64,000 nucleotides of DNA from NCBI GenBank assembly GCA_946699065.1, contig CAMPDV010000023.1, positions 930,001 through 994,000 of the forward strand, given 5' to 3'. The stretch is from Loxodes magnus. Lineage: Eukaryota > Ciliophora > Karyorelictea > Loxodida > Loxodidae. Positions 153 through 33,713 of the stretch are shown here, piece after piece. The position numbers were made by a program, and so were the translations under genes. Numbering within the stretch: the stretch's first letter is position 1; every line of letters begins with the position of its first letter. The notes under the pieces were generated by a model. The model ran no database searches, had not been told where the DNA came from, and was given only the letters and a program-made list of their open reading frames with translations.

Positions 153-2153
153 TCACTTTCTTGTTTCTTTACTTTACTCAGTTCCTATTGTAATCGCTTT
201 ACTTCTGACTAAATATTAAATTATTACCTGTTACTTATCAGCTACTTAAACAAGTTCTTTTATTTTTTCATCTGCATTGAGCATTGAAAGAGGCATAGAT
301 AAATCACCTATCATTATATTATCTTCCTAATAGGGTAGATATCTTTTTTCTCGTGGAGATAGATTTTAAGGTACTATTGTGAAATCTTTAGGCAAAGGTA
401 CATTATTGGAAATCATGACTTATTCAAGATGTTCGCAGTATGCTGCTTTAATCTCTAATTAATCTTCGGTTTCTTTGTGAATTTTATCATATGCATCTAG
501 TTCTTCTTGAAGTTAAATAATTGTTTCATCTCTTTCATTAAGTCTTGCTGTAAGAGCTATCATAATATCACGCTATTTCAATAAAAGTTATTTATATCTA
601 TCAACTTAAGCTTTATCTTCTTCTATATTTTACCTTTCTCTTTCCAAATCTTATAACTTTTTTTCATATTCCTACCTAATTTTTTGCTGCTTTTACTCAA
701 GAGCTGTTCTAAACTAAGGAGTATCTTCTATTTTGACTCCTCCTTTTAGAACTTAGGAAGACATCATTTTAATTTTTTCTTCTAGTTTTTTCTTTTCTTC
801 TTTTTCCTTCATAAACTCTCTTGATCTTGATTCAAGGGCTACAATTGCTGCTTCTTTATCCTCTTCAGCTCTTCTTTTTTCTTCTTCTAATTGCATTAGC
901 TACTATATATCTACTACATGCTAAGCTTTCTAACTCAATTGTTCACGTAATTTCTTTAGTTCTATTTCATAGCGACGTAAAAGCGCCTTAGAGTCAACAT
1001 CTTCGTTAATTCTTGGTTAATTTCTTATATTTTTAGCTCTGTTTGCGAATTTTAAAGTAGAAAGGGACTCGGCAAATGAAGTATGTGCAGGTGATATCAT
1101 AGCCATAAATGTAGTTTTGCAGTTTCCACCTAAAGAATCTTCAAGAATTCTGGTAAGTTTAGAATCTCTATAGGGAATGTGAGCTCTGGGTTTTTAAGAA
1201 GTAAGTGCCGCAATAACATTTCCCAAAGCAGATAATGATTAATTTATTTTTTTTGTCTCTTCTAATCTTTTTCCAGTAGAACCAGAAATTCTTACTCTTT
1301 CGCTTCCTGCAAGATCTACAAGATTTAGTTTACCCATTCTAATACTACCTCCAGTTTCCTCACCATCAATAATGTTTTGAACCATATGCTCTAAAACAAT
1401 TATAAAGACAGCATGAGATCTAGAACTTATATCATTCATTTTTGTGCAAGCTGTTGCTCTATCTTATGCTCCTTTATGCATAAGCGAATAAATATCACTT
1501 GGAGATCTTACAGCCCATTCAGAAAGACCCTCAACAAAAACTCCTCTTTTTTTATCTTCCCTAATTGTAAGTGAAGTTCTTTCAGCTTTTAATAAATCAG
1601 AAATGTTTTCATTATATATTTAAAGATAAGAAGCTCTTACCATAAAAGTTGTATTAGGATCTATACAATTTTCAATATACAAAAATATATCTTCCATTGA
1701 TCTTGGAATTATTCCTCGTTGAGGATCTCCTGCTGTGTATTTAAAACCTTCCATTGTATAAGTTTTGCCAGTTCCTGTTTGGCCATAAGCAAGTATTGTA
1801 GCATTATATCCTTCTAGCACTGACTGAACACTTCCTTTAGCTGTACACTCATATACATGCTGCTAACTAGCATCTTAGTCATAAACATAATCAAAGGTGA
1901 ATTAATGAATAGTGTAAATGCAAGGATTTTCTTACATATCTCTCGCTCTATCCAGTTCCGTAGTTTCAGCACCAAGATATTCAATAATTTACACAACTTT
2001 TTCACTTTCATCTACCTGAGTAATAGCTTAGAAAGCATTATATTCATCATGTTCTCGAGGTAAAGGAGGCCTAATTCTAATTACTACTTTAAAATTTTCT
2101 ACTTATTACTCAAGTATCCCTTAATTTCTAGGAGAATAATACCCTCTTTCCAT
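153..2153 (-). CDS. Kinesin-family motor protein
   Basis: Microtubule motor ATPase with an N-terminal motor domain. The frame reads 666 codons without a shift if TAA/TAG are Gln. Visible in order: core strand [11 protein letters not shown] near residue 22, P-loop GQTGTGKT near 127, switch I NDISSRSH near 240, switch II DLAGSE near 280, then [17 protein letters not shown]. From about residue 375 to the end it is a charged coiled coil (runs of E, K, R, Q), so it probably dimerises. The start is the ATG closest to the motor; the TGA at 153-155 is taken as the stop, but TGA can be Trp so the tail might be longer. Subfamily is not certain; the motor looks like N-terminal, ungrouped or kinesin-2-like. 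No introns are needed. Confidence 0.93.
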
Positions 2154-3014
2154 TAATAAATTATTGAAAAAAAGCTTTTAAATATTTTCTTATTTCAATT
2201 TATACTAAGCACTCCTTTACTTTATCCTCATTCTTACTCTCCTTCTTACAATCCTGCTTACACTCCTACCTCATATCTTTACTCTACTACTTAGCATTTT
2301 TATATTAGCGTCTGCTTTTCTTACTATTATATCATTCGTATTCTCATATGGATATTAATAAGCCAATCTTAAAGGAGAAATGGGTAGAAATAGCATATTG
2401 ATGAGATGAAATAATAAAGGAAATAAGAATTAAATGAATTTGATTAAATAGAATAAAGGCATTGTTTTATAATATAATATGCTAGCATTTCAAGATACTA
2501 ATGATATAATCATGCTTATATATCTTATTATACCCTTTTCATGTCTGCTTTATATTTACTAACTTCTAACATTTATATCAGAGTGGTGAGCAGTTTGCTA
2601 GTCAATTATTAAAAGTATCTTTATTAAATTTAAGTAGATGCTTTAGTTTGTTGTATCTCAATTAATTATTATTAATTAAGCTAGACTATTTAAGTTCATT
2701 TTTGGATTGCTTTATATTTTATGAGGTTATAGCAGGTTTTAAACATCTAAGGTTCTTCAGTTTCTTCTAACTTCTTAAATTTAAGAATATAATTCTTTAA
2801 CAAAGAGTACTATACATAATTAAAGTGGTTAATAAGCATAAATAAGATTAGATATTAATATTGTGGAATGTATAATGCTAAAGAGATATAATAAGTTTAT
2901 TGATGCAAGTGCTTTTAAAGGAAATATATTTACGATATTTATTAATAAGATATCAGATTTTTTTAATCATAGAAATGATTTTACTTAGTGACTAAAAGCT
3001 AAATATTACTAAAT
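2154..3014. other. Intergenic spacer
   Basis: AT-rich sequence between the divergent kinesin and RING-finger genes. It should hold both promoters, but no motif could be singled out and no coding frame was recognised. Confidence 0.6.
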
Positions 3015-7195: not shown

Positions 7196-8879
7196 TCAGA
7201 GAAGAAAGCAAAAGAAGGCTCCTATTGCACTGCAAATTCCTGCTGATGCTAGTCCCCAAATGTTATCATCTATTTCTTAAAAAACAAGGAAAAAAGCAGG
7301 AATTATGCTCCACATGAAAATCTGAGAAAGTAGCAAACTTAATTAGCATGCGCGAAAAAAAACACCTTCTTTATATAAAGCCTATGGGATATGTAGTTGA
7401 TCGCTTCTCTCTAATATTAAATTTTTATTTTCTGCATTTCCAGGACAATTTTTTGCTTAGTGACAGACATAATCGTGTTTGCATTACGTGATTAATTTAA
7501 GTTCTAATTATTCAGCAATTTCTTCTGGCAATGAATTAACAGTTGCAAAGGAAAAGCCACATAAAGGTAAAATAATAAAAACTGAACTAAATTCATCTAC
7601 TCTTAAAGTACTTAGCAAAGCAAAAGCAGAAATGATATGACTAATTCCTAATAATTATGCTTCTGTATATTTCTTTTTAAGCCAATGCATAGACATTTAT
7701 ATAATTGTGCAGATCATTGCTGTTCCTAATAAAGCAAAGGCACCCCATGAAACTCCAATTTCAAAAATTCTTCTTCTTAAACTAGTTTTACTATCTTCTG
7801 GAACTCCATTTAGTATCGAAATGCCTACCCAGCTTGTTGCATATACTTCAATCATTATATAGCTGGATACACAGAAAAAGTAGGATACAAGTAGGATTTT
7901 TACTTCTAAAGGAAAGAATTTAATTTTATCAATTTCTGGAAAAAACATAGTCACTTTATCATATTTCTATAAAGCTCCTTTATATTCTTTAAAGTCCTAC
8001 TAATTCATTTAATCAACTGCTTCTTATTCTATCTTTATGTTTATTTCTTTACGCTATTACTCACTTTCAATTTGATCAAAGCTTTTGCTCATCTTCAACT
8101 GTACAGCTTATTCACTTCAGGTAAATGTATAATTGCTGGCTAATTTAATTTAAGGAATGATAAAAAGGAAGACAAAAATAGAGAGAACTATTCCAACAAA
8201 ATAACAAAATGCCATGTTATCCTGGAATAGTTGCAAGCCAATATTTATTCCTAGAGCAGGTAAAGAAGCTAAAGCAAATCCTACTATTTTTCCAGAATGG
8301 ATTCAAGAAAGAGCAATCTTCTATGAGTTTTACTTACTTTCGTCAATGGTGTATGTTTCTAGAAAATTCTGCATTGTTTCGTAGAGAATTTCATGAGCTA
8401 CATCCATTAAAATAAAGCCAAAAAGGCCAAAAAACATAGTAGTTTTTCTAATTTAATGAATGTTATAGCTAATATCGTTTCGATGATACCATTCACCGAA
8501 ATTTTCAGCATAGCATAGCATCAGCATACCTTAGATTGATGTAAAAGTCATTATAAGAATCAGCATTCTTTACTTAGTAAAGTTATTTGCAAAGTATTTA
8601 AGTGTAGGATTAGCTAATAGCAAAATTAAAACTGGTAGGAGCCACACCATCGAATCTAATAAATCAGGAGTCTCAATTTTTATAAAGAAAGGAGTAATGA
8701 ATGAAATTTCAAGAGAATAAGCTATATATTATAAAGTTACCAAACTCTATAACAAATAATACTGAAGCTATGAGATTTACTTTTTCTTGAGACAAATAAA
8801 ACTGCTTTTTACGTATACTTTAGCTTGAATTTCCATTCTGGACACTATTATCATCCTAAGGTACAATATTTCTGTCCAT
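7196..8879 (-). CDS. SLC45-like MFS sugar/proton symporter
   Basis: A 554-residue major facilitator with about 12 membrane segments, best matching the SLC45/sucrose-transporter group, which imports disaccharides with protons. Family-like landmarks: EFAYSLEISFITPFF in the first helix (compare EFCYALETAYVTP in SLC45), a long charged cytoplasmic loop at about residues 250-310, WVGISILNGVPEDS at the start of the second half, GFSFATVNSLPEE in the tenth helix region, then CPGNA and IPQAL. One 19-nt intron (8722-8740, minus-strand gtaactttataatatatag) is required to join helix 1 to the rest. TGA codes Trp in LSWIHSGK and FTWSEQ. Stop is TGA 7196-7198. The exact sugar cannot be read from the sequence. 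Confidence 0.87.
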
Positions 8880-9290
8880 TAAAATAATATTTAAATCCTA
8901 AGTTAAAGGAATTTTCTCTTTTAACAAAATGTGATATATTAAAGCTTCATCAAAAGATAAATAAAAATATTACAAATGACGCTTTTTAAAATAGTTAGAT
9001 TTCTTTTATTTGGTAGGGATTAAATTCTTTGTTACTTCTCTTCTTAAAAAAGATTTCCTTAAGCAAGCTCTAAATATATTATCAATATATATAATTAAGC
9101 AATCAAACCAACTTTTTTTATAATTATAATATCATATTATTAGCTTTACTTAGAAGTGAACTTAGCAAATATTTATTATTAATGTAAATATTAATTGATG
9201 CAAGGTTGTCTAAAATCTATTAAGACGGTCAGATATTTAAGGCTTAATTAAATTAAATAAAGAATCAATTTTAAATTTTCTTTTAGATAA
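8880..9290. other. Intergenic spacer between divergent genes
   Basis: AT-rich promoter region for the divergent SLC45-like and cysteine-repeat genes. No recognisable element. Confidence 0.5.
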
Positions 9291-11390
9291 ATGAAAATTC
9301 TATAGATAGTAGTGTTTTGTTCTCTGTTGGTTACTCTTTTTGCTATTAAGGGGGAGGCAAAGGAGTAAAAAAAACCAAAACGAGTTCCATATTCTGAAAA
9401 AAAGAATAAATGTGCCTCTTTTCGTTGTAAAGGAATTCATAGAGATCAAATACTAGCAAGAGATATGTGTATACACTAATGTGTGCATGAGTAATGCTAT
9501 AAAGATGTTTACCATGAAATATCTTTATCGGATATTACAAGCAGAAAAGAAGAACTTATTCTTTCTGACAAACTCAGAAAAGATTTCTTACTTTGCTATG
9601 AAGGAGAATTCATCCAAAAAAACTATCACGAACTTAGAAGTTAATGTAGCTAGTGGAACTGCAAGAATATTGAAAAAAATGATATCGTTTAACGAGAAAT
9701 ATGTATTTACCTTTGCGTTTCTCCATCCTGCTACTACTAAATTTATGATGATCTTGATTCAGTTTAAAATTGGGACATATTAAATTAAGAACTTGAAATG
9801 GAAAGAAGAAAGTTTCTTTTTAAGGACTGTGTTGATGCGGCTATTCCTAAAAAGAAGTCGTTACAAAAAAAGCCTTATAATGAAATAAGAGCAGAATGCG
9901 TGCAAAAGAAATGTGGAGATATGTATGATGATAATTCCCTAGCTAAAGACGTATGTATTCATAAGTGTATTGATGTAGAATGTTATTATGAATCTTATTA
10001 CGAACTCTAGGGATAAGATATGTCCAAGTTGTCCAATACTTTAGTAAACAAAGAAAAAGAATAAAGAAAGAAGCTCTTTATTGAATGCTACGAATAGGAT
10101 ACATTAAAAATGGCTAAATACACTTCAAAAAGATCTTATTGTAGTGACAATTTTTGTAAAGAAATCGATAAATTTGATAAATGGGCTCGTGACTTGTGCC
10201 TTCATAAATGTGTTAGTGAAACTTGCTTTAGCGATATTTATGGAAAAGAAGAAGATTGGAATTAATTATTTACTGATGATTACGAGCAAATGAAAGTTTA
10301 AGAAGAACTAAAATAAAAATTTATTGACTGCTTCTAAGGAACAGAACAGTTGGAAAAGAGAAAATATAGTGCTTTATTATCCAAATGCATTCAGACTTAG
10401 TGCTTGAATTATAAATTCAGTCACGAATTTCAGAAAATCTAATCAGAAGAAGATACTACATCTTTCGAAGATAAATTCGAGAAAGAAAGTTGCATTCATA
10501 AATGTGTTTCCAGAGTTTGTTGAGATGAAATTTATATTCCTATAGATTTCAAAAAAGAAGAAAAGTAATCAAATGAAGAAAGATTTATTAGATAAAAATG
10601 GAGAAAGCATAAAATGACATAATGTATAGGTAAAAGAGAAATTCAAGAAAAAAGAAAAAATTATGACGAATTAAGAAATTAGTGCTCTATGTAAACTTGT
10701 GCATCAGTGAATAAATAAGATAGATTAAATAGAGATCTTTGTTTACACAAATGCATCAATGAGAAATGTTTCAAAATCGTTTATAAAGAATTTGTTCCGC
10801 ATGAAAACTTGGCCTAACGTGAAATATAAGTAAAAAATTTTAGACATAGTTTCGTTAAATGTGTTGAAGAAGAATCTGGGATTAAAAAATATTATCCAAA
10901 TATGAGAGCATATTGTGCTAAAAACTTTTGTACTTTTGTAAAAGCTGAAGGCGATTAAATTAAAACCGAAATGTGCATTCATAAATGCGTTAGTTAGGCT
11001 TGCTACTAATAAGTTTATTAGCCATTGATAATAGAAAATAGTGACGATTATATTCATCAATAATTTAACAGTGAAAAAGAAAAAGATCTTTTTATAGACT
11101 AATATAAATGGTAGTTTGTATAGTGCTACTAGTAATTATAGCTATTAAAAAGCTCTTCTATACTTCATGGAGAAGGAAGCACAGAAGATGAAGCATTAAA
11201 AAGCATAAAAATCGAGGAAGAGACAGATAGCTAAAAATAATCAGAATAAGTACAAAAACAAAATGAAATCGAGGAATTTTAAACTCAGGAAGAGATCGAA
11301 AGTCCTTAAATTCAAGAAGAATTTACATAGCATGAAGAAACAAGAGAAAGAACTGAAGAAACGGAGTATACTACTAAAGATGATCTCTGA
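9291..11390 (+). CDS. Secreted protein with seven six-cysteine repeats
   Basis: A 699-residue, intronless, probably secreted or surface protein. It begins with a clear signal peptide (MKILQIVVFCSLLVTLFA). Seven tandem units of about 90 residues follow. Each has C-x4-C, a variable stretch, then C-[IL]-x2-C-[VI]-x3-C-[YFW] (for example CIHKCVSETCF) and a later F-x2-C, giving six cysteines that could form three disulfides per unit. The core D-x-C-[IL]-H-K-C-[VI] is the most constant part. The last about 110 residues are acidic and Q/E-rich without cysteines. I could not name the family; short plant and animal secreted proteins with a similar C..C...CY core exist, so a known DUF is possible. Repeats are well diverged, so this is not a recent amplification. 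Confidence 0.88.
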
Positions 11391-20388: not shown

Positions 20389-21450
20389 TCATTACTGCTA
20401 AATTAATAAAAGGACTTACGAATTAGAATCTCTCTTAGCCTTTCCACGAGAATCAATAATTTTTTGAACTGCTATTGCTAAATACTATCCTACTGTCATA
20501 AAAACTATAAAAACTATTAAAACTGATGTATTAAAGAAATCAACAAGACCTGGACCTGGACAAAAACCTGAAAATCCCCATCCAATTCCAAATAAGGCGT
20601 TTCCGATTATCATGGAAGCTTCAAGTTCTTTCTTTTTTGGAATTGCGAAACTATCAGCCCAAACAGGAATTTTTCTAACATATATAATATAATAAAATGT
20701 AATAGCATTCACTAAAACTGCTCCACCCATTACAAAAGCTAAGCTTGGATCCCAACCATCCTTAATTGTTAAAAATCCTAAAACTTTTGACTGTCTGCAC
20801 ATTCCTGAAACAACTAATCCTTTACCGAATAAACAACCTAGTAAAAATTATGTAAGAAGTAATTTGAAATGCTTTCTTTCAAAAACTAATGTTAGAACAA
20901 CACATACTAGTAAGCCACACCAGAAATAAAAGCTTAAATGACTCCAATCTTGTCCCCAATATTCTCCATTTTTAAGATGTTCACAATGATATCTTAGAGT
21001 TGCTACTAAAAAGCCAAAAAACATAAAAACACAAACAGCCACAATGCTTCTTAAGGAAAATCTAGGAAGTCCACATACACCATGTCCACTTGTACATCCA
21101 TTTCCAAGTTTAGTTCCAAAACCTACTAAAAGTCCTGCTATTACAAAGCATAGTATGTGTCCACTTTTGGCTACTGCAGCGTCATCGTCAAAAATAATCA
21201 GAGAAAAGTCCGTGAATTAAATCGCTCTTCCAAATACTGTAAACATTGCAAATGGTAAGGTAATTAATCCAACTAAAAAATTGAATCTCCAACTTACATC
21301 TCCATTCTAAGGATAAATAATTCCACTGAAAATTCCGCTTAAGCCAGTTATTTTTCCGTAGAGTAAGAGATTCAAAGTTGCAGAGATTCCGATAAGCACT
21401 CCGCCAATTAAGGCAGCTATGTACTCGTGTTTATTGTAATAAATTTCCAT
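20389..21450 (-). CDS. YeeE/YedE-family thiosulfate (sulfur) transporter
   Basis: A polytopic membrane protein of 353 residues from the YeeE/YedE (TsuA) family, which imports thiosulfate in bacteria. The three cysteine-bearing motifs of the family are all present: [13 protein letters not shown] near residue 113, [13 protein letters not shown] near 217 and [14 protein letters not shown] near 295, in the expected two-fold repeat arrangement with about nine helices. It probably moves thiosulfate or a related sulfur anion across a membrane. Intronless. The family is mainly prokaryotic with scattered fungal and protist members, so ancient transfer is possible, but base composition and code match neighbours. 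The frame ends after SNSQVLLLIQQQ at TGA 20389-20391. Confidence 0.9.
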
Positions 21451-23072
21451 TAATTTATTAATAAGTAAACTATCTCTCCAATTTAATAAGCAATTTAACC
21501 TTTAATTTATATCAAATCATCATATTTACAACCCTATTCTCTCAATTTATTTATTTATACCCGCTTAATCTCCCTATTTTTACTTACCTTAATTATATAA
21601 TTTTGTGTGTTATTGCTTTTTAGATTACTTAAATACCATTAAAATACTCTTGCAGAAATAAAATACTTCTCTTAAAAATATAGCTTTATTAAAAATAAAT
21701 TAAAAGTACTGATAAACTATTTTTAATATAACCATATTTCAAATTTGTCAATAGTTTCATTAAAGCTTTCTACAATTTGATATCATATTTATACTTCAAT
21801 TTACTATAACTCCTTAATTTCAAATTTACTTTATTATTAGCCTTTTAAGCTCTAAAGGAAGAAGCTAATCTAATAACTAAGCCAATTAAATAACTTATTT
21901 AGAGTGTAAGCTCTTCTGATCTAAATTAAATTAATAATGTAATAAAATAATTTCTTAATACTATTTTGATATTTTTATAAAGCTTTATGTTTTAAACAAT
22001 CTGTATCATTTCATAAAAGAGTATTCAATTGAATTATTAAGATTAAGTTATGCCAATTTAATGTTTTTATTGTAATTTGGATATCTTTAAGTAAGAGTTT
22101 AATTAAAATGGCATCTTTTTATGAAGTCTTATCTTGATAAAACTCCTCTATCTAGACTAAGCAAATAAATTTACCTGCATAAATAAGAATATCCTGCTAT
22201 TATGTAAGCCTTGCTAAGATATTATTCAATTATATTTTATACTTTTATGCAAATCTTAATTACTTACCTTAAGAAGCACTGAAATATAAGCACTTATTCT
22301 AAGAATTAATTCATTAGGCTTATAAAAGTTAATTTAAAGATCAGTAAGTAGCTATATAATTTATTTTATATGCTAGCTATATCTAATTATAAATATCTTC
22401 TTTTATTAAGAGATATACCATAAATCCTTAAAACTTATAAGAGGATATTTATAATTCTATCACCAAAAAGCACTTATATCTCTCCTATTTTTATAAGAAT
22501 CAGGTTTATACTTCTAAATAAATAAATTTATAGATAGATAAAATGTTTCCCTAAAAAGAACTCTTTCTTTTTTAGGTTATTACCTTATTTAAGTTTCAAG
22601 TATTATGAATTCATCAATGAAATATTGCTAAGCAAGCAGATATAAATGGAAATAATTTTTAATATATACATCTAAAATATATTTATAATAAGGACTTAAA
22701 ATGAGGTATTTAATATAAGTAAACAGTATGTAAGTTAATAAAGAGGATATAATAAATTTCTTAAATCAAAGCTTTAAAATCTATGAAATCTAAATTTTTT
22801 TAATTTTCATAGGTTTAATTTAATTTTAAAGTTGCGCTTAGATAATTAAAATAAATTTTAAGTTAGCTGCCTAATAAAAGGAACAGTTGAAAAGATTCTA
22901 CAGAATGAATTTAATTTCTAAGATTAAAATGTGATTTTGATTAAGTATTAGTTAAAAAGATAATGTTATTGAACTACCGAGTATAGAGTTTTTTAAATAA
23001 AAAATTTTGAATTAGCAGCTTTTAGACGTATTATTTTTGATATTTTAGTTTTCATCAATTATTAAGGAATAA
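21451..23072. other. AT-rich intergenic region, 1.6 kb
   Basis: Promoter side of both the sulfur transporter and the MORN gene. I see no coding frame of natural composition, no structured RNA and no clear repeat. Confidence 0.5.
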
Positions 23073-28363: not shown

Positions 28364-31300
28364 ATGGCAATAAGAGTGTAGGAGGAATCTAATGAACAAG
28401 AAAAATCTTTATAAAACCATAATCAAGATTATTCTGAAACTTACGAGGAAAGATAAAGCAAAATAATAAAAAGAACTCCTTAGATTCATAATGTTTAGAA
28501 TCTTTACTAAATAAATAATTTCTATGAAACTTAAGAAGCTAATTTATTCAAATTGGCCTAGGAGCATAATTTATTAGAGAGTAATTAATTAATTTCAGAA
28601 AGTAATTTTTCAGAATTTCAATAAAGGTTCTTTTTATAAATGCAGAGTGTAAGAAAATGTTTAATTGTAGAGAGTAAGTTTAAATAAATTTTTAAGGATG
28701 TAGGATTTTATAAACTAAAAATCTGTAATGATTCATATTTTAGATAGTAAGAATTAAATTTAGTATGTAAGATATAGTTATTGTTAGAGAGTAAAATTTT
28801 AATTAAAGAACGTAAAATTTAATAATTTACAGGGGGTATTTTTTAATGCTTAGAAAATTGGAGTTATAGAGTATTATTAGCAAGTAATAGCTTTATTTTT
28901 TAGAGAGTTAACTTTTATTATTTAGTGAGTAAAATATTTAATATTTAGAGTGTATGTTTTGAATAAAAGCGCGTAAGGTATTTAATCTTAGTCTTAAAAA
29001 AACATATTAACTAGCAAACAAGTATACTTTTAATCTCATAGAGATTAAGAGCAATAGAATGCTATTAGTGTGTAAGGTATTATATATTAGAGGGTATGCA
29101 TTAAAATTCAAAGAGAGTATCATTTCTAGAAATTTAGAGGGTAAAATTTTATGATATAGAGTGTAAAATTATAAAATAAAGAGAGTAAAATTAAATGATA
29201 GCAGAACTCTTGAAACTGTGCAAAACTTATTAGAGTGTATATTGAAATAAAATAGTAAGGTTTAATAATATAGATCGCTAATTTTTAATTTATAGAATGT
29301 ATGAAAATAAAATATAGAGAATATAATCAAATTCTATTAGCAAGTTAAATATATAAATTATAGGAAGTTAAATTTTTAAATTAGAGAGTCAGACTTTTAT
29401 TTAGAGAGTATCTTTATAAATATTTTAGAAAGTATTTATTAAAGTAGAAAGTATGTTTCTATTTTCAGCCAGCAAGATATTTTTAAGCATAGGAGGGATT
29501 TAACTAACGAGGATAAGTATGAAATGTAAAATTCTTTTATAGATAGTATAATTTTGTGAATTATTAGGAAATCATCAGAGATAAATAATTATGTTCAGTA
29601 ATAGTTAAAAAAATAGAGTGTAATTATTAATTTATTAGGTCGTATGAATTAAAAATTTAAGCTAGTATATGATTCAATTTTAGAGAGTACGCATTTATTT
29701 CAGGGAGTAATTAATAAATTTAGCTAGTAAAATTCTTAAATAAAAGAGAGTAATTTATTTATTTTAAGAGAGTTAAGGATTAAATTTAGAGAGTAAAATT
29801 TAAAAAATATAAGAAATATAAATTACTAGATTTAAATGAAAGAGTATATGCTTTATTAGAAAAGAGAGTATAAATACTAAATTTAGAAAGTAAGAAATGT
29901 GAAAAGAAAAGAAAGTAAGGAATTTAATAAAAGAGAGTAAATACTTTAAGTATTAGATTGTAGGAATAATTAATACTCAAAGGAAGTATGTATTTACAAA
30001 CTTAGTATGTAAGGTATTTATTTAAAAGAATGTAGAGTCTTTAATTCAAGAAAGTAAAATTTATAAGATCTCCAAGAAAGTAAATTTTTTATTTTAAAGA
30101 TAGTAATCAAATTCAAAAATTTTAGCCAGTAAGAGTATTATTAGAGAGTGTAAGTTGTATTACTACTAATAGTTGGTTATTCTTTTATATGAAGAAAGTA
30201 ATTTTCTAGTTCAAAAGAAAGTAAATTCTTAAATTTGAAGAATGTGAAGAAATTTTATTCAGATTGTACATTTTTAAAATTAGCAAGTAGATCTTAAATT
30301 TTATAGGATGTAAATATCTTTAAACTTAGGTTGTAAGTATATTAATATAGTTGGTATGAAATTAAATTCGTAGTTGGTATTCAATTAAAAATTTAGCTTG
30401 TAAGATAATTTCCTTTTAGTTTGTACGAATTAACATTTAAGGTGGTATTACATAAAATGTTAAAGCTTGTTAAGGGATTTAATTTATTAGTCCGTAAGCA
30501 TAATAAATACTAAGATTGTTAAGGTTTAATTTTAGATTGTAAAAAATAAACTTGTAGTGTGTAAGAAAATAATATCTAGTATGTAAGTTTTTAAATTTAG
30601 AACGTGATTTTGCTATTTCAGCTTGTATTTTATAAAACTAGATGGTTAAAATTAATATTCTTAGTTTGTAATATTTAAAGTATAGGAAGTATTGCCTAAT
30701 TTATTTAAGGAAGTAATTATATTTATTTAGAATGTAATTTTTTACTTGCAGCTGGTAAAAATAATTATGATAGCATGTGATCTTTATAATGATTATAGAA
30801 AGTGAAAATTAATGTAGATGCGGTCAGTAATATTTTTATTGATTTTAGAAGGTTTGAAATTAAATTTAGTGAGTAATTTATTTATTCATCATTAGATTGT
30901 AATTCTTAATTTCTAGTTGGTAAAATTTGTCTATGACAGTTTGTGGTAAGCAGAATAATTAAGCAAGTAATTTTTTATATTTTAGATGGTAAAAATTCTA
31001 AATAAGCTGGTAAACATCACTATTCAGCTTGTAAATTTGTTAATAAAGCAAGTAAGTAATAACTTTTTCAGTTTGTAACGTTCTAAACTTAATAGCTGGT
31101 GAAAATTTTTAAGATTTAGATTGTAAGACTAGTAATTAGAAGCAAGTAATAATTAAAGTATTTAGAATGTAAAATTTAAAGAAGATGGTAAAATTTAAAA
31201 TAATAGTTCGTATTTAATTTATACTTAAAAGCTAGTATAAAATTAAAATTAGGTTGTATCAAATTTTAAAATTTTAAGGAAGTAAGTTTTAAAAATATCA

Positions 31301-31953
31301 GAAAGTATCTTAATTTTAAATTTAGTTGGTAAGTTTTAAAACAAGAATGTGATTTCGATTTTATGACAGAAAGTAAAAAAGTTATTTAAAGTTGGTATAA
31401 TACTTATTTGAAATAGGTCGTAAGCTATTTAAAAATAAAGTTGGTAATAACTAAAATTTAGCTAGTACAAATCTTTAATCTGAAGATGGTAAATATACTA
31501 TCAAAGAATGTAAATTTATAAGAATAAGATTGTAAGATTTAACATAAAAAGCAAGTAATATAATTTAATAAAGAATGTAAGAATTTTATGAAATAGATTG
31601 TAAAAAATAAATTAGATGGTATACATTTCAAAATTAAGTTGGTGATAATATATAATTAGTAGTTTGTATGGATTTTGATAGATTAGCTGGTAAATTATAA
31701 CTATTATATAGCTAGTAAGTGATTAATAATCTTAGATGGTTATCTAATTTAATTATAGCTTGTATAAAATTTAAGTTTTAGAACGTAAAATATTTATTAT
31801 ATAGTGGGTATAACGATAATATATAGAGGGTATTTTTAATTTTATTTGTAGATCGTAACTTGAGTCAACTTAGAGAGTAGGATCATAAATTTTAGTTGGT
31901 ATTTTCATAAATCAGAGAGTTAAAATTTTATTCAGTGTAATAAAATTATATGA
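28364..31953 (+). CDS. Hyper-fragmented gene: about 130 tiny introns and about 120 single-codon exons
   Basis: Exon 1 (28364-28648, 95 codons) reads MAIRVQEESNEQEKSLQNHN and stays Q/N/E-rich. After it, GT..AG introns of about 16-26 nt (one of 44) alternate with exons that are nearly all exactly 3 nt: AG-NNN-GT. Longer exons are 28992-29021, 29042-29071, 29202-29234, 29260-29298, 29320-29343, 29469-29516, 29568-29597 and 29814-29843, plus two of 9 nt and one of 6. Every one is a multiple of 3 and open in phase 0. The last exon, 31936-31953, ends in TGA. I count 133 introns and 317 residues; a few boundaries are ambiguous. The middle is Arg/Lys-rich, the end hydrophobic (DVLLLFVLSIICYNLMF), suggesting a membrane protein. 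Family unknown. The introns resemble those of ordinary genes in this window. Confidence 0.8.
28649..31935 (+). repeat. Intron/micro-exon array, unit about 23 nt
   Basis: The array part of the gene. Units are not similar in sequence, only in grammar: GTA-rich 5' end, about 14 A/T bases, TTTAG or AAAG 3' end, then three bases. Examples: tag-aac-gtaaaatttaataa near 28808 and tag-ttg-gtaagttttaaaacaag near 31325. Because only splice sites are conserved, this is not a minisatellite of recent origin. Confidence 0.8.
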
Positions 31954-33713
31954 GGTAAATTTTCATAACTAAAGAGAGTATACAATTTATTTAAAGAGGT
32001 ATGCTAAGTTAATAGTAAAGTAATAATTAAAATATTAGGAGACTAAAAATTCGTTTTAGATAATTAATTTTATAACTAAAGTAATTTTTTATATGCTTCT
32101 TAATTATTTGGTTTTTTATCTTTTATTTTAAAAAAAAATTCAAATTTTACATATTTTCAAAATCAATAAATTTTGAGGGATATTTTTAGAATAAAAAAAA
32201 ATTTAAGCGAATACTATTCTTATAGATATTCAATTATATATATATTTTAAATTTATGCTTTATTATTTTTAAATTAAATGATTTTCTAGAACATACCATA
32301 TATTTAGCAACTCACCTTAGTACTTTAGATTATCTATGCATTTTATCACAAGTTTATTTATTAAAGAAGTATTAATTAGAAGAGGTAAAATACCTAAAAT
32401 ATAAATCAATTATCACATTTTTCATAAATTTATTAATTTTATTTTCGTTATTTCCTTTCTATGTATAATATTTAAATACACTTTTAATACATTTTTATAT
32501 AAAGTAAGCTATTATTAGATATGACTCAATATAGCAAAGCACTTTAATTTCTTATATAGTTAATATTATACATAATTTGATTGAAAATTAAAATTTATAA
32601 GTTTCTATTAGTTTAAATGTAGTTATTTTTATTTACTAATATTATGAAATTTTATTAAATATTATCCAATGAAATATTTATTCTTCTAATTTTAGCTTTG
32701 CTAAATAGTTCTATAAGCTTTTAAGCCCATAATCTTGTAAATAAAAAATTATAAGTCTTTATAGTTAATTTCAAAATATTACAAATTATTTTGTATTCTT
32801 TATTTATAAATATATACTTAATTAATAAAATTTTTTAAGTATAATTAAAATTTAAAGTATTATAGTATAAAATTATAGATATTTAAATATATTTTAATCT
32901 TAAAATAATAATTAAATAAATCTATTATCCATGTTTAAAAGCTAAATAGCTAAAATTATTCAAACTAAAAGATAGGATTTATATTAATTTATTTTATTTT
33001 TTATTGTTAAAGAATTTAAAATAAGAAAGCTGTACATTATTCAATCATATATGTAAAACCTCGATTTTAATTACTGTAAAACTTATAATATGTTAATTAC
33101 TTATTATTAAGAAATAAAAATAATATTATTTAGATATATATTTAGTTGGATTTATATTCTAATGCTTTAAATATTAATTTTTTTAATATTCAATTTTTAA
33201 TTATTTTAGAGTAATATAATTCTTATTATTTGATCATGATTATACTAATATGAAACAATAGTTCTATTTATATTAAAGTAATTTTCTTTCTTAGGCTTAT
33301 AAATAATTAAATTAAGCAGTTTTAAAACTTTAATAGTTTTTATATATCATTTAAATTTATTAAAGACTTAATCGTTGCTTAAAATAATTTTTTATATTAC
33401 TGAAGAGAATTATATTTATTTATCATATTAATATATCTTAAAATTATGCAGAAAATTATTATCTCATTTAACTTTAATTGGAGCAAGCTTTATCGTTAAC
33501 ATAATTTTTGACTTTTAAAAAATTAAAAATTATTATACCTTTAAAAATTATGAAAATAAAGAATATTAATTTATAGCTTTAAAATATTTAATTAATGCTT
33601 AATTATTATAATTTTCAATCTTTTAATTTTTTAAAAATTTTAAAAGTAAATACTCCTCAAGTTATATAATAATTTTAATAATTTTATTTAAATTGTTTTG
33701 TGGCGCCAATTAG
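31954..33713. other. AT-rich region, including array-like units after the stop
   Basis: The first 100 bases still show AG-AGA-GT units (near 31973), then ordinary AT-rich spacer with no recognised gene. Confidence 0.45.

Follow-up and report, generated by a model that had tools for sequence, protein, structure and literature searches.

We have analysed a stretch of 64,000 nucleotides (nt) of DNA from the karyorelict ciliate Loxodes magnus (C23:930001-994000 of an assembly of 705,730,643 bases), called the window below. With a probability of about 0.84, its plus strand carries a spliced, protein-coding karyorelict gene cut into one-codon exons. After a first exon of 95 codons there would be about 116 exons of a single codon, about 15 longer internal exons (6–57 nt in the phase-0 parse, in which exons other than 3 nt are held to multiples of three) and, between them, about 130 introns of about 19 nt. 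Splice sites, their spacing and a preferred frame are evident in the window, and conserved one-codon exons and splice dinucleotides are evident in other genes of the assembly. The original prediction, an earlier reading of the same DNA, had proposed a gene of one-codon exons; this proposal is supported mainly by comparison within the genome and less by the window gene alone. Coordinates without a contig name are positions of the window, and the array lies on the plus strand.

From 28649 to about 31935, GT..AG segments of 16–23 nt alternate with short remainders, mostly of 3 nt. The interval 28640-32050 contains 135 AG-NNN-GT sites, whereas 500 dinucleotide-preserving shuffles had 21 on average and never more than 33. 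Other spacings in this interval are AG-N2-GT (3), AG-N4-GT (4), AG-N5-GT (11) and AG-N6-GT (6), and AG-N1-GT occurs 38 times, chiefly within AGAGAGT. Triples of AG-NNN-GT in a row at 9–20 nt spacing were found 112 times (mean 0.09 and maximum 2 in 500 shuffles), and none was found in the rest of the window on either strand. The AG-NNN-GT repeats over 3.3 kb with GT..AG spacers, as first predicted, are thus confirmed. The phase-blind parse of the array gave 138 introns and 114 three-nt exons. The same parse gave 65–77 introns and 0–6 three-nt exons in 20 Markov copies, and 0–2 three-nt exons in each of 34 other 3.4-kb segments, both strands included. The phase-0 parse consists of 133 exons, 116 of them of one codon, and 132 introns, with a coding length of 1029 nt including the stop; 131 of the 133 exons are internal and do not exceed 57 nt. 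These counts agree with the predicted numbers of about 120 one-codon exons and about 130 introns of about 20 nt. One-codon exons do not follow each other more than 100 times in a row, as had been claimed: the array is not unbroken, and its longest strict run is 48.

The introns of the phase-0 parse, which requires GT..AG ends, are 16–23 nt long with a mean of 19.4 nt, and introns of L. magnus are reported to average 19.3 bp by RNA-seq (PMC11441545). The 132 introns have the GT..AG ends and the length of about 16–25 nt typical of L. magnus spliceosomal introns, in excess over the controls. For introns of this species, lengths divisible by 3 would be expected to be under-represented, and in the phase-blind parse 40 intron lengths have residue 0 modulo 3, 51 residue 1 and 47 residue 2. 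Neighbouring window introns are not alike (lag-1 score 0.28, standard error 0.29, background -0.07), and with this negative test a tandem repeat or minisatellite was rejected for the window array. A decaying minisatellite, with AG-NNN-GT in its unit by coincidence and without a coding role, is a very unlikely explanation of the array. Some relatives do contain a real 27-nt satellite, and weak local repeats of 22–23 nt are present within the window array; however, adjoining introns of the window resemble each other no more than distant introns do, a frame is preferred in the longer exons, and in the comparisons described below triplet order is kept while introns are not, and splice dinucleotides are unchanged between duplicates.

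The log score was 356 with the exons other than 3 nt held to residue 0 modulo 3, 334 with residue 1, 334 with residue 2 and 367 without any constraint. Frame 0 leads the other frames by 22 log units. Residue 0 was best in 9 of 12 irregular gaps, residue 2 in 2 and residue 1 in 1, with a slight bias toward residue 0, the gaps having been picked from the phase-0 parse itself. In an earlier test, 4 of 7 irregular gaps could be resolved, each of them best at residue 0; the other 3 gave no parse. Judged alone, the frame of the window gene is moderately convincing as a real one. The array phase matches the 95-codon first exon, as had been predicted, because exon 1 ends AGT|GTAAGA in phase 0. Three further claims of the prediction stood in part. 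Exons other than 3 nt are always multiples of 3 in the phase-0 parse, but 12 of the 23 such exons in the phase-blind optimum are not; the apparent rule arose because a choice had been made among neighbouring AG and GT sites. All exons are open in one phase if TGA encodes tryptophan (Trp), but not with TGA as a stop, given the in-frame TGA at 28926 and 30870. The chain does reach a short exon with TGA at 31936..31953, but 2–3 GT..AG units continue past it out of frame. The in-frame TGA codons mean that TGA has to be read as Trp inside genes, as in karyorelict code 27; for L. magnus, TGA is reported as Trp or stop (PMC11441545). Unspliced coding was rejected: with TGA as a stop no frame is open through the array, whose longest open stretches on the plus strand are 210–439 codons. 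If TGA is Trp, every frame is open, and therefore openness tests nothing. A gene finder trained on the window was discarded, as it gave overlapping genes on opposite strands.

The layout turned out to recur in the genome. Three consecutive copies of TAG-NNN-GTA were matched 14,412 + 15,060 = 29,472 times in the whole assembly (reversed control 449 + 298); this number also takes in simple repeats and a gene family with many copies. The same three-unit pattern with 4-nt exons has 204 + 67 = 271 matches (control 191 + 335). The genome-wide enrichment is specific to exons of exactly 3 nt and is not seen for 4 nt. One decamer repeat accounts for 39 of the 100 matches listed for the 3-nt pattern, and the matches listed for the 4-nt pattern are one octamer repeat. 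Simple tandem repeats at C6:517092-517525 and C13:788338-789187, TAGGTAGTAT and TAGTATAG, inflate the pattern counts. A stricter pattern gave 73 + 49 matches against 1 + 1 in the control. Among 100 listed matches of the stricter pattern we counted 14 clusters, each with at least two matches inside 5 kb and one of them in the window; the count omits a simple repeat at C44, and some clusters are copies of each other. The view of the window gene as a lone oddity was therefore too narrow, with 13 further clusters among the matches listed. One of the loci, L030, has a strict run of 55 one-codon exons. The excess of 3-nt exons is absent in 220 kb sampled elsewhere (22 stretches), and therefore the arrays are confined to particular places.

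Four loci, L025, L026, L027 and L028, belong to one family, which we call RING-UBL; they are the four array loci other than simple repeats among the matches listed for the 3-nt pattern, which reach C10:1010173. Pfam finds a RING finger above the curated cut-off and ubiquitin below it in the first exons of L025 and L026, and in L028 ubiquitin above the cut-off and RING below. By tblastn, L027 (E 6e-14) and L028 (E 4e-6) are tied to L025/L026. The first exon of L026 has 2496 candidates in the genome, an unusual copy number, and the 150 of them that were scored all have E 7e-48 or better. Eight further members were chosen from these 150, and the family comparison covers ten members. The window gene lies outside this family: there is no tblastn match in the window at E 0.01 and no Pfam match for its protein. 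An alignment of the ten copies with MAFFT shifted introns by one base, and an exon-wise fit was used in its place. With exon lengths imposed by this fit, 20 consecutive exons (3, 3, 3, 27, 3, 3, 6, 21 and then twelve of 3 nt) fit all ten copies. GT and AG are kept in 186 of 190 introns, and 15 of the 19 introns vary in length. The conserved one-codon exons come after the RING and ubiquitin-like exons.

A splice site is broken in 4 of the ten RING-UBL copies, and L027 is decayed. Such copies, together with the in-frame TGA and the GT..AG units past the stop in the window gene, speak for a former gene of this architecture that is now a pseudogene or is not expressed. We consider this unlikely for the window array, which retains its sites over 3.3 kb and prefers one frame.

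Close RING-UBL copies alone prove nothing, since intron and exon rates are not separable in them: intron variability is 0.128 and that of one-codon exons 0.11–0.17, so that introns are not more variable. The pair L025 and L026 was rejected as a test. Its one-codon exons, assigned by hand, agree at 36 of 48 bases (shuffled 38%), but its intron cores are also alike (66%, shuffled 57%), and therefore the pair is too close. A more distant relative is L039 (C228), a 1.3-kb locus assigned to the family solely by the 21-nt exon (IWMSLKK) and the exons after it. Three of the ten members were used for comparison. An uninterrupted run of 14 one-codon exons matches the RING-finger gene L033 at 33 of 42 bases (shuffled 35%), or at 31 of 42 when exons were picked by splice sites alone; permuted exon order gave a mean of 15 and a maximum of 24 of 42 bases. 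The intron cores of this pair are 56% equal, the same as shuffled (56%). Against L025, exons agree at 29 of 42 bases and introns at 53% (shuffled 55%). Against L026 the figures are 31 of 42 and 57% (shuffled 53%, standard deviation 2), and a slight intron similarity may remain. A Trp of the 14-exon block is TGA in nine of the ten members and in L039, which fits code 27. As triplet order persists where intron similarity has been lost, the one-codon exons seem to be genuine coding units and not repeats in decay.

We also compared a recent duplicate on C89. Its two inverted copies, L037 (C89:615400-618400) and L038 (C89:735200-738200), are 98.7% identical over 3 kb and consist almost entirely of one-codon exons, with a chain of 120 in each. 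None of the 480 bases of splice dinucleotides differ; the chain was defined from only one of the copies, and any site destroyed there would go uncounted. Differences affect 23 of 1974 intron-core bases and 14 of 360 bases in exons, the latter split by codon position into 5, 2 and 7, which are small numbers. The one-codon exons of this gene use Ala, Thr and TTA, unlike those of the window gene, and similarity to the window protein is absent. For the spliced pieces of the C89 and C61 loci, Pfam gave nothing above the cut-off; the best was a weak chemoreceptor match (Sre, E 0.003). The first prediction had also held that chance or a decaying minisatellite would not suffice. This is borne out by the triplets kept between L039 and L033, by the 0 of 480 splice bases that differ on C89, and by the 29,472 matches against 271.

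In the middle of RING-UBL genes (e.g. L025:2423-3461, L031, L032) there is a 27-nt satellite made of a near-identical 24-nt intron and a variable triplet. It has 6 to 58 units by locus (ten loci), with the intron consensus GTAAGATATTTTAAATATTTATAG. Neighbouring units are thus similar mid-array in several RING-UBL genes, and this similarity is missing from the window array. In L032, 54 of 58 satellite introns are identical, yet there are 11 different triplets; by locus, triplets differ between units at 54–68% and introns at 2–35%. In L025, short blocks of several units recur with their triplets unchanged, and therefore units multiply in tandem. Selection for variety, conversion of introns only or mutation bias may be the reason for triplets varying more than introns in the satellite and on C89. 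It is possible, at somewhat less than even odds, that genes grow codon by codon, through tandem amplification of a unit of 24-nt intron and one codon inside the reading frame. Amplification would leave the frame intact, every unit being complete with splice sites and a single codon. Young arrays would then have identical introns and varied codons, and old ones such as the window gene would keep only splice sites and codons under selection. The window introns have no trace of 24-nt-type repeats, as expected if the array is old. If true, codon-wise tandem growth would be an unknown route of protein extension, and the spliceosome would have to handle 3-nt exons dozens of times in succession.

The first half of the window array encodes mostly Arg, Lys and Ser, and the second half mostly Leu, Ile, Met, Phe and Asn. 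Mean hydropathy is +0.78 in the second half (30173..31918) versus -1.98 before it, and intron composition is unchanged between the two halves. For the window triplets, average codon usage beats intron composition (log likelihood -458 versus -480). Codon usage as proof of coding was set aside as not decisive. Unlike the one-codon exons, three other open frames of the window commonly use the codons TTA and TAA.

A number of results weigh against a spliced coding gene. The frame-0 constraint costs 11 log units relative to the phase-blind parse, and the window gene has 2 or 3 in-frame TGA. Apart from the difference between the two halves, hydrophobic residues do not cluster (p 0.054 overall and 0.39 inside the second half). 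The position-only model fitted to the triplets reaches a log likelihood of -419 against -458 for codon usage, and therefore some non-coding constraint may act on the triplets. The second base is C in 2% of the 116 one-codon exons, and TTA, TAA and TAG are absent from them. The first exon has no paralog, with one match only in the 706 Mb assembly by DNA and by protein; the paralog search with the 81-residue spliced tail gave only a match at E = 2.26, and the spliced protein has no relative in Pfam, PDB or a large database. In the other genes, 27 of 304 satellite triplets are TGA, which strains their being coding. In the C89 pair, 3.9% of exon bases but 1.2% of intron bases have changed, a roughly threefold difference, and the one-codon exons of the RING-UBL copies have rates of 0.176, 0.127 and 0.139 at positions 1, 2 and 3, the third not being the fastest. 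A transcript or DNA array without coding function, serving as small-RNA precursors or as a row of evenly spaced binding sites, would be in line with the success of the position-only model and with triplets that vary more than introns in the satellite and on C89. It is nevertheless highly improbable, given the codon-position pattern on C89 (5, 2 and 7, small numbers) and the place of the conserved one-codon exons after RING and ubiquitin-like exons.

Ciliates of other groups are described as removing many short internal eliminated sequences (PMC11441545), and spacers like those of the window might likewise be excised from DNA during macronuclear development, not from RNA. This is barely credible here. 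The spacers are GT..AG and intron-sized, the assembly of 705.7 Mb matches in size the macronuclear assembly of L. magnus, reported as 706 Mbp, and a section heading of the same paper states that classical eliminated sequences were undetected (PMC11441545).

For a spliced gene of one-codon exons, we infer transcription, splicing, the order of splicing and the protein from the sequence. The introns would most likely be recognised as units (intron definition). The two splice sites flanking a 3-nt exon should lie too near each other to be occupied simultaneously: on the acceptor of one intron, the splicing machinery should have a footprint that overlaps its footprint on the donor of the following intron. 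Neighbouring introns would therefore be taken out in succession, probably starting at the 5' end, with the upstream exon growing at each step. The mRNA would contain about 1.03 kb of coding sequence for a basic and then hydrophobic, probably membrane-bound protein of about 340 residues.

Microexons of animals and plants usually occur singly between ordinary introns, whereas the window gene consists of arrays. The likeness lies in the size of exons, up to 15 nt in the published account (PMC8831610). Schistosome micro-exon genes (MEGs) are closer: about 80% of their coding region is described as lying in symmetric exons of 6–36 bp (PMC5825161), and in the window gene, too, most of the coding sequence lies in very short symmetric exons. 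This holds for the phase-0 parse, where most of the coding region is in short multiple-of-3 exons; frame 0 leads the other frames but is not the phase-blind optimum. MEG products are reported as almost always secreted or membrane-anchored (PMC5825161), and the predicted window protein is membrane-protein-like. Unlike MEG exons of 6–36 bp, the typical exon here is 3 nt, outside that range, and the introns are about 20 nt. Ciliates with tiny introns, L. magnus (PMC11441545) and Stentor coeruleus (PMC9505925), share introns of about 15–25 nt; the accounts of both, as far as their text was available, cover short introns and not arrays of one-codon exons. The word microexon is absent from the main text of the L. 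magnus paper (PMC11441545). Introner-like elements and intron gain by tandem duplication also multiply similar introns (PMC4457414, PMC4974935), as in the 24-nt satellite introns. Unlike in the accounts of these elements, the tandem unit here is one intron and one codon, with the triplet varying between otherwise identical units. Arrays of consecutive one-codon exons were not found in the literature searched, which was available in part and did not cover bioRxiv. Thinking on exon size limits and on intron gain, like steric models of splice-site recognition, regards 3-nt exons as rare exceptions. In this genome 3-nt exons are apparently used by the thousand, and some one-codon exons are conserved. 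Such arrays would offer a natural test for intron definition, splicing order and intron multiplication, and gene prediction in such genomes probably misses proteins of this layout.

Features of the predicted gene in the window
Positions	Strand	Feature	Basis or remark
28364..28648	+	First exon, 95 codons, open with TAA/TAG = Gln, ends AGT|GTAAGA in phase 0	Single match in the assembly
28649..31935	+	Array of GT..AG introns and mostly one-codon exons	Phase-0 and phase-blind parses
28671..28724	+	Uncertain stretch: 54-nt exon (phase-0) or 28-nt exon from 28697 (phase-blind); other splits possible	
28854..28862	+	9-nt exon, KIG	Both parses
28926..28928	+	One-codon exon TGA, Trp if code 27	
28992..29021	+	30-nt exon, SQKNILTSKQ	Both parses
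29042..29071	+	30-nt exon, RLRAIECYQC	Both parses
29182..29217	+	36-nt exon in phase-0 parse; boundaries uncertain (phase-blind: 16 nt from 29202)	
29260..29298	+	39-nt exon, VQQYRSLIFNLQN; phase-blind start 29256	
29320..29343	+	24-nt exon, NIIKFYQQ; phase-blind start 29318	
29469..29525	+	57-nt exon with in-frame TGA; a 48-nt reading to 29516 avoids the TGA	Both parses
29568..29597	+	30-nt exon, EIIRDKQLCS	Both parses
29814..29843	+	30-nt exon, KYKLLDLNER	Both parses
30173..31918	+	Second half, one-codon exons rich in Leu/Ile/Met/Phe, membrane-protein-like	
30818..30826	+	9-nt exon, MRS	Both parses
30870..30872	+	One-codon exon TGA, Trp if code 27	
31936..31953	+	Proposed last exon, TGT AAT AAA ATT ATA TGA (stop)	Original prediction, phase-0 parse
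31954..32038	+	More GT..AG units past proposed stop, phase lost; 3' end uncertain	

Other genes of the window were identified with Pfam. A kinesin at 153-2270 (minus strand) has 40 in-frame TAA or TAG, in keeping with a ciliate code. The open frame 20389-21516 (minus strand) has sulphur-transport and DUF6691 domains. These families are known mainly from bacteria, and lateral transfer of this frame is possible. DUF4787 domains are present in two adjoining open frames at 8829-11390 (plus strand).

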